Virus record (IMG/VR): IMGVR_UViG_3300047300_000543
Span: 1 to 21,864 of that record
Direction: 5' to 3' (one strand)
DNA from: a virus
Length of the DNA: 21,864 bases
Under the pieces are notes generated by a model. That model searched no databases. It was not told where the DNA came from and saw nothing but the letters and a program-made list of their open reading frames with translations. A program made the position numbers and the translations under genes. Shown in pieces: positions 6,567-6,820 of this stretch. Position 1 is the first letter of the stretch; the number at the start of each line of letters is the position of its first letter.

Positions 6567-6567
6567 T

Positions 6568-6586
6568 TTGCTTAAATTTTAAGCAA
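6568..6586. repeat. Perfect 19-bp palindrome
   Basis: TTGCTTAAA, then T, then TTTAAGCAA: nine perfect pairs around one base, two bases after the stop at 6566. It could be an operator or a transcription end of the upstream operon. Confidence 0.8.
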
Positions 6587-6799
6587 CACGTAAGTTTGCT
6601 GTAAGTTTCAGAGGCCCCGAACAAAAATGAATACTAAAGTATTGTTCTTGTTCAGGGTGTTCAGGGTGTCGGGGTCTAAACTCTATTTTTGATTTTTTTT
6701 TTTTTTTTTTTTTTTTTTAAAAAATAAATAAATAACCCCGACACCCTGAACACCCTGAACAAAACTAAACGAAAGTATTCATTTTTAAAAGTGTTGCTT
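6581..6799. repeat. Nested inverted repeat (cruciform-capable)
   Basis: Three perfect arm pairs nest around a poly-T loop: 6581-6589 with 6791-6799 (9 bp, AAGCAACAC), 6623-6635 with 6774-6786 (13 bp, AAAAATGAATACT) and 6648-6675 with 6735-6762 (28 bp). The 28-bp arms contain a direct repeat of TTCAGGGTG. The left arms also hold a smaller alternative hairpin (AATACT/AGTATT). Confidence 0.9.
6693..6718 (+). repeat. T26 homopolymer followed by A6
   Basis: It is 26 T followed by AAAAAA and TAAATAAATAA, in the loop of the large inverted repeat. It may be an unwinding element. Homopolymers this long are also prone to length error in sequencing. Confidence 0.9.
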
Positions 6800-6808
6800 T
6801 TTTACGAC

Positions 6809-6817
6809 TGTGGATAA
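6809..6817 (-). promoter_or_regulatory. DnaA box
   Basis: TGTGGATAA is the exact reverse complement of the consensus DnaA box TTATCCACA. It lies three bases before the ATG at 6821 and next to the inverted repeat. Only one other exact match was seen, inside the SNF2 gene (17935-17943). Confidence 0.5.
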
Positions 6818-6820
6818 CTT

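Follow-up and report, generated by a model that had tools for sequence, protein, structure and literature searches.

Origins used by primase-helicases that load themselves have been described both as iteron arrays and as stem-loops. Phage P4 has two cis sites, ori and crr, which differ from each other and carry TGTTCACC-type iterons. The archaeal plasmid pRN1 of Sulfolobus uses a 100-bp stem-loop (21-bp stem, 58-nt loop) that is necessary and, with the replication operon, sufficient in cis, and a similar stem-loop is found in the Bordetella phages BIP-1 and BPP-1, whose replication protein has a PriCT_2 domain (PMC4234260). What is recognised in the pRN1 and BPP-1 stem-loops was given as "not yet identified sequence motifs" (PMC4234260). 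In PICI origins, an AT-rich region lies between two iteron sets, an architecture called unique to PICIs (PMC6092414). The SaPI Rep protein recognises its origin by its C-terminal domain and appears to bind the iterons as two hexamers (PMC7581432). The locus described here lies in a 21.9-kb linear fragment of an IMG/VR virus (21,864 nucleotides, hereafter the window) and is, judging from sequence comparison, most likely one of two replication start sites of this uncultured phage.

Inverted nonamers around an AT-rich core

The whole origin-like element (locus A) covers positions 6581-6799 (no strand assigned) when its outermost 9-bp arms are included. A sequence-only reading had described nested arms of 9, 13 and 28 bp, perfect in their pairing, around a T26A6 loop, and all of these were found. 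The 9-bp arms AAGCAACAC lie at 6581-6589 and 6791-6799, and the outer flanking arm AAAAATGAATACT (6623-6635, plus strand), which in relatives falls within a near-palindrome ATGAGTACTTTAGTACTCAT adjoining the iteron arm, pairs with its partner at 6774-6786 (minus strand). The 28-bp arms at 6648-6675 (plus strand) and 6735-6762 (minus strand) are a perfect inverted match. The left one consists of a T and three tandem nonamers, TGTTCAGGG TGTTCAGGG TGTCGGGGT, and the right one repeats these nonamers inverted; the direct repeat reported inside them is likewise present, with TTCAGGGTG occurring twice in each arm. Between the arms is a 59-nt core that is 93% AT (6676-6734, no strand assigned), the presumed melting region, which includes a T26 run (6693-6718, plus strand) followed by A6. 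Homologous copies in the window clade have T runs 22-30 long. The strand folds at -50.4 kcal/mol versus -17.2 kcal/mol for shuffled sequences, 10.4 SD better (n = 200 shuffles; z -10.4). What the earlier reading called a "large hairpin" is better understood as inverted tandem iterons.

Copies in relatives and GC skew

A 24-base arm pattern matches 23 viral DNA stretches, and many of the matches are on contigs whose primase is about 94-97% identical. In the window clade, relatives have the element at the orthologous site (locus A), 6 kb upstream of the primase gene, with an inverted second copy (locus B) about 7.5-8.4 kb further upstream; the two copies are at 3465 and 11006 in L008 and at 1524 and 9375 in L017. 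Both are at least 6 kb away from the primase gene. In three relatives (G024, G017 and G018), the position equivalent to base 1 of the window is about 150-200 bp from locus B, so in this phage locus B should lie just off the start of the window. All eight exact nonamers of the 53-kb contig G001 are inside its two elements. The segment between the copies has one orientation in all relatives examined, and in other clades the copies have the same orientation, as judged by eye from arm asymmetry. Conservation at orthologous loci contradicts the idea of an inserted element absent in close relatives, which had been named as one way to refute an origin. Several contigs stop at or inside the element, for which reason a hairpin telomere was considered; it was rejected, as other contigs read through the element and two internal copies exist. 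The contig ends are explained by assembly breaks at the palindrome and T run.

The region near the window start contains other repeats. Tandem arrays of 27 and 43 bp (93-187 and 295-406) are located beside the expected locus B, and a 40-nt repeat, AATTCACCCCCAGTTGACCATAGTAGTATCACCAACC, is present in seven copies ahead of small ORFs (622-661, 1033-1072, 1380-1419, 2071-2110, 2864-2903, 3625-3664, and 4588-4627). Several of these copies are followed by AGGAGCACACCATG, and the repeat is dispersed in relatives too. It is perhaps a repeated phage promoter or leader, possibly for the sigma-like protein encoded at 8805-9326. A TATACCCCCGGGGGTATA palindrome occurs about 100-150 bp beside the locus-B element of the window clade in L004 and L007.

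Three primase scans gave us 142 distinct primases, all from related uncultured phages. The stretch up to 900 bp upstream of each start codon was screened with a detector that responds to inverted arms of period 9 on both sides of an AT-rich core. The search for similar blocks in related phages, which the earlier reading had proposed, thus returned an element upstream of the primase gene in 76 of the 142 relatives, typically 26-240 bp from the start codon, in addition to those at the same locus in the window clade. No element was detected in 359 control segments or 393 shuffles, nor within that 900-bp interval in any of the 29 window-clade members. Iterons differ widely across the family (among them TAGTCACAG, AAGACATAG, TAGTACTAG, TATCCATAG, TTGCGGGGG, TTGTCACAC, and TTGCACAGG), and once phased have a loose common consensus, T[AT]G[CT]CA[G][GA]G. 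One relative with a 96% identical primase (L035) has the same architecture but TTTGCAGGG iterons. The outer span is nearly constant (median 120 bp, 5-95% range 115-128, n = 81), the core has a mean AT fraction of 0.83, and nonamers of equal rank in the two arms are more alike than those of unequal rank (0.785 versus 0.682, p 3e-9, n = 84). Two copies of the element per genome are found in several relatives, and a second cluster lies 7.5-11.5 kb from the primase start in 5 of the 11 genomes with at least 7.5 kb of upstream sequence. Some relatives have extra copies of their own iteron between the element and the primase start codon, and the presence of such iterons near the primase promoter in several of them suggests self-regulation. 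The 9-mer detector found no element in Proteus 2207-N35 or Morganella Henu15, and a looser search gave possible analogues adjoining the primase in Marinobacter PS6, Bacillus A9Y, Lacticaseibacillus C4.1, and Listeria LP-030-2. In L048 (4537-4686) and L051 (492-640), TGAGAATNATTCTCA-like palindromes stand just outside the iteron arms on both sides, like the AGTACT-type palindromes of the window clade, and are maybe a site for a second protein. An inverted repeat in L092 (325-556), very long but imperfect and with many GCATGCCAA words, is unlike the iteron element.

The proposed check by cumulative GC skew was borne out in part. Among the longer contigs, G002 has its minimum 0.3 kb from the element and G001 has it between its two copies. 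The minimum of the window falls between locus A and the expected locus B; the likely genes on either flank of this turning point share a strand, so that the turn is not made by gene direction alone. In G007 and G009 the minimum is at the contig end beside the element, which counts only if the genomes are circular. The minima of G004 and G005 are about 6 kb from the elements, and G006 has no skew turning point. The skew reading for G004, G007, and G009 presumes circular or permuted genomes.

The primase-helicase as candidate iteron reader

The presumed initiator is a primase-helicase encoded at 12764-15079 (plus strand) with PriCT_2, D5_N, and SF3-type helicase regions. Its match to TIGR01613 (158.1 bits, cut-off 108.7) identifies it as a P4-family phage/plasmid primase, and 39 of 47 relatives match Pox_D5, at E values of up to 1. 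Other proteins in the window are a SNF2-like helicase, a VRR-NUC protein, a DUF2800 nuclease-like protein, and an Enc34-like ssDNA-binding protein. Two beta-proteobacterial MAG contigs encode relatives of the primase, a weak hint at the host. The C-terminal domain (residues 676-771; 14789-15076, plus strand) is the presumed iteron reader. Modelled with 47 sequences (pLDDT 85.8), residues 655-771 fold as a winged helix that places residues 735 and 744 on the strands of the wing and residue 721 in its recognition helix. The best fold matches of this model are RFX1 bound to DNA (Z 10.6), RFX5 (10.4), and the P4 origin-binding domain 1ka8 (Z 8.6, rmsd 3.0 A over 84 residues). The last of these was found by fold comparison alone; phmmer with the window C-terminus and a profile of that C-terminus gave no sequence match to it in the PDB.

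Covariation between iterons and primase was examined in 52 non-redundant genomes with phased iterons, using primase identity as the control. Iteron similarity follows the C-terminal part of the primase, above all residues 721-765, with a partial r of 0.26 when whole-primase identity is controlled (0 of 200 permutations) and of 0.29 when the control is the identity of residues 1-670. In 263 of 300 jackknifes no other 45-residue window does better than 721-765, and the correlation persists for pairs less than 80% and less than 70% identical and is 0.33 without the window clade. A weak second peak is located in the primase part (241-285). An unphased run had pointed to residues 81-120 and 241-280 as the reader; these were replaced by the C-terminal wing after phasing and removal of redundancy. 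The best single columns are 735, 701, 744, 733, 721, and 737, and 12 of the best 30 are within residues 676-771, compared with 3.7 expected. Every one of the 33 genomes whose iterons mostly have A at position 8 has His at residue 744, while none of the 36 genomes without His744 has such an A majority; 16 further His genomes also have no A majority, and these counts leave ancestry out of account. When the tree is built with the C-terminus left out, column 744 gives up to four concordant and no discordant independent pairs, which is not significant (p 0.125). RFX1 inserts its wing, not its helix, into the DNA major groove (PMC4333399), and the covarying positions 735, 737, 741, 743, and 744 in the wing beta-hairpin (residues 732-751; 14957-15016, plus strand) fit wing reading of this type.

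Candidate readers were the proteins encoded on the retrieved stretches, and neighbouring genes show nearly no partial correlation with the iterons (sigma-like 0.01, HTH -0.04, SNF2 0.02, VRR-NUC 0.08), sets of 12-13 genomes being too small for a firm verdict. The HTH protein, 98 amino acids long and similar to sigma-70 region 4 (18383-18679), was first suspected because it differs in iteron-swapped relatives. It was rejected as the reader, its putative recognition helix being nearly identical across iteron types and its partial correlation being the -0.04 given above. Its (T/S)(E/Q)KYWRYH motif is almost unchanged from one relative to the next, and the protein matched nothing in PHROG and nothing above cut-off in NCBIfam. 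Among the proteins compared, the primase-helicase appears to be the best reader candidate, with modest covariation (0.29), and its C-terminal domain, not host DnaA, is probably what reads the iterons.

Relation to described origins and competing explanations

The element resembles several described origins and differs from each. Like pRN1, the phages have an initiator with an archaeo-eukaryotic primase, an SF3 helicase, and a C-terminal winged helix, and an inverted repeat of about 100 bp (stem 21 and AT-rich loop 58 in pRN1; 28 and 59 here, with a family span of 120 bp). The pRN1 origin was described without iterons, as one copy downstream of rep on an archaeal plasmid, whereas here there are three nonamers per arm, the element is upstream of the gene or far from it and not downstream, and several genomes have two copies. 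The arms of pRN1 contain TGTCCATAG TGTCCAACT, two TGTCCA-based nonamers, and those of BPP-1 contain inverted tandem nonamers, TTTGCCTCG TTTGCCTCG TTTC, around an AT-rich core, which suggests that the stem-loop and iteron descriptions may be one thing. The fit is looser for pHEN7 (TGTCACCAC TGTCACAAC) and pRN2, evidence of such arms is weak in pDL10 and pSSVx, and single pRN plasmids are not significant alone. BPP-1 and BIP-1 share with the window phage an identical primase domain order (PMC4234260) and inverted tandem nonamers, but their stem-loop is 3' of the PriCT_2 primase gene, has another nonamer, and was reported as a stem-loop rather than as iterons. In PICI and SaPI origins, too, iteron sets stand on either side of an AT-rich region, and a self-loading helicase reads them with its C-terminal domain. 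Those origins are directly 3' of rep in satellites, while the elements here precede the primase gene, by 6 kb in the window, lie on phage contigs of up to 68 kb and are present in two copies in several genomes. With P4 the phages share a P4-family primase-helicase whose C-terminal winged helix is modelled as being of the 1ka8 kind (Z 8.6). The alpha protein of P4 has another primase type (PMC4234260), and unlike ori and crr, both copies here are of one architecture.

That the block is an origin, as the earlier reading had proposed, is well supported: the element is kept at orthologous loci, has an iteron architecture, covaries with the initiator, agrees with most skew minima, and has a geometry matching that of proven origins. 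The comparisons make it likely that the element is an origin of the P4/SaPI/pRN1 type, whose nonamers would be bound via the winged-helix wing of the phage primase-helicase. Monomers of this protein would bind the tandem nonamers through the wing and, since the nonamer triplets are inverted and about 60 bp apart, we propose that one helicase ring would load on each side of the T26 core, the two facing opposite ways. The rings would then melt the core and start two forks, with the primase domain priming, by analogy with the self-loading helicase SV40 T antigen (PMC9894130). Locus B could be an origin in its own right or a partner site that looping keeps in contact.

Some of the same evidence could be read as transcription control, with the primase-helicase or another protein binding the iterons as an operator and replication starting elsewhere. 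The position of the element shortly upstream of the primase gene in most relatives and the extra iterons before the start codon in some are in line with this, and a double role in origin binding and regulation is common for initiators. We consider an operator unlikely, because it has no need for a 60-bp AT-rich core of near-fixed length between inverted triplets, the window-clade copies are both remote from the primase gene, and the skew minima and the pRN1 origin favour an origin. Still less probable is a terminator or RNA structure, which would account for the strong hairpin potential; the T run is in the loop and not after the stem, no terminator-like site at the element and no Rfam match were found, and the iteron periodicity and covariation with a DNA-binding domain would be left unexplained. 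We give equally little credence to a mobile non-coding repeat (MITE-like) or recombination site, which would suit the presence of two copies in a genome and, in the window clade, their inverted orientation about a 7.5-kb segment. Its orthologous positions in many genomes, a sequence that follows the primase, the same-oriented copies of other clades (by eye), and the constant orientation of the segment in the relatives examined all argue against mobility.

A host-driven, oriC-like origin, in which DnaA at its box melts the T26 tract, is very improbable. As had been noted, a perfect DnaA box, TGTGGATAA (TTATCCACA), is present at 6809-6817 (minus strand) beside the AT-rich tract, and 5 of 11 window-clade locus-A copies keep it. 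However, it is missing from the other locus-A copies, over half, and from all 12 locus-B copies; it sits 3 nt before a start codon and could be inherited for other reasons; it is a single box, where oriC has several conserved boxes beside the melting region; and the iterons covary with the phage primase-helicase. DnaA boxes with at most one mismatch number five in the window versus 4.1 expected, and a second perfect one (17935) is inside the SNF2-like helicase ORF. Taken alone the box is thus near chance level, and DnaA finds no support as a defining part of the origin; given its retention pattern, the box would be at most accessory and is probably not essential. In the distant relative L142, a run of DnaA-box-like words (GGTTATCCACAGGTTATCCACA) is found beside the T run of the element (about 3720-3830).

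If the elements are origins bound by the primase-helicase, the hairpin of one uncultured phage leads to a likely origin class in dozens of genomes, and the architecture called unique to PICIs (PMC6092414) would extend to phages. The nonamers suggest what the motifs of the pRN1 and BPP-1 stem-loop origins (PMC4234260) are. Single residues such as 744 may set the choice of iteron, which would make the specificity of self-loading helicases directly testable. More tentatively, and with somewhat less than even confidence, nonamers in inverted tandem sets, separated by an AT-rich core whose length is fixed, may be the general origin of primase/SF3/winged-helix replicons from archaeal plasmids to phages, with wing and iterons coevolving as a readable code and many phages having two cooperating origins.
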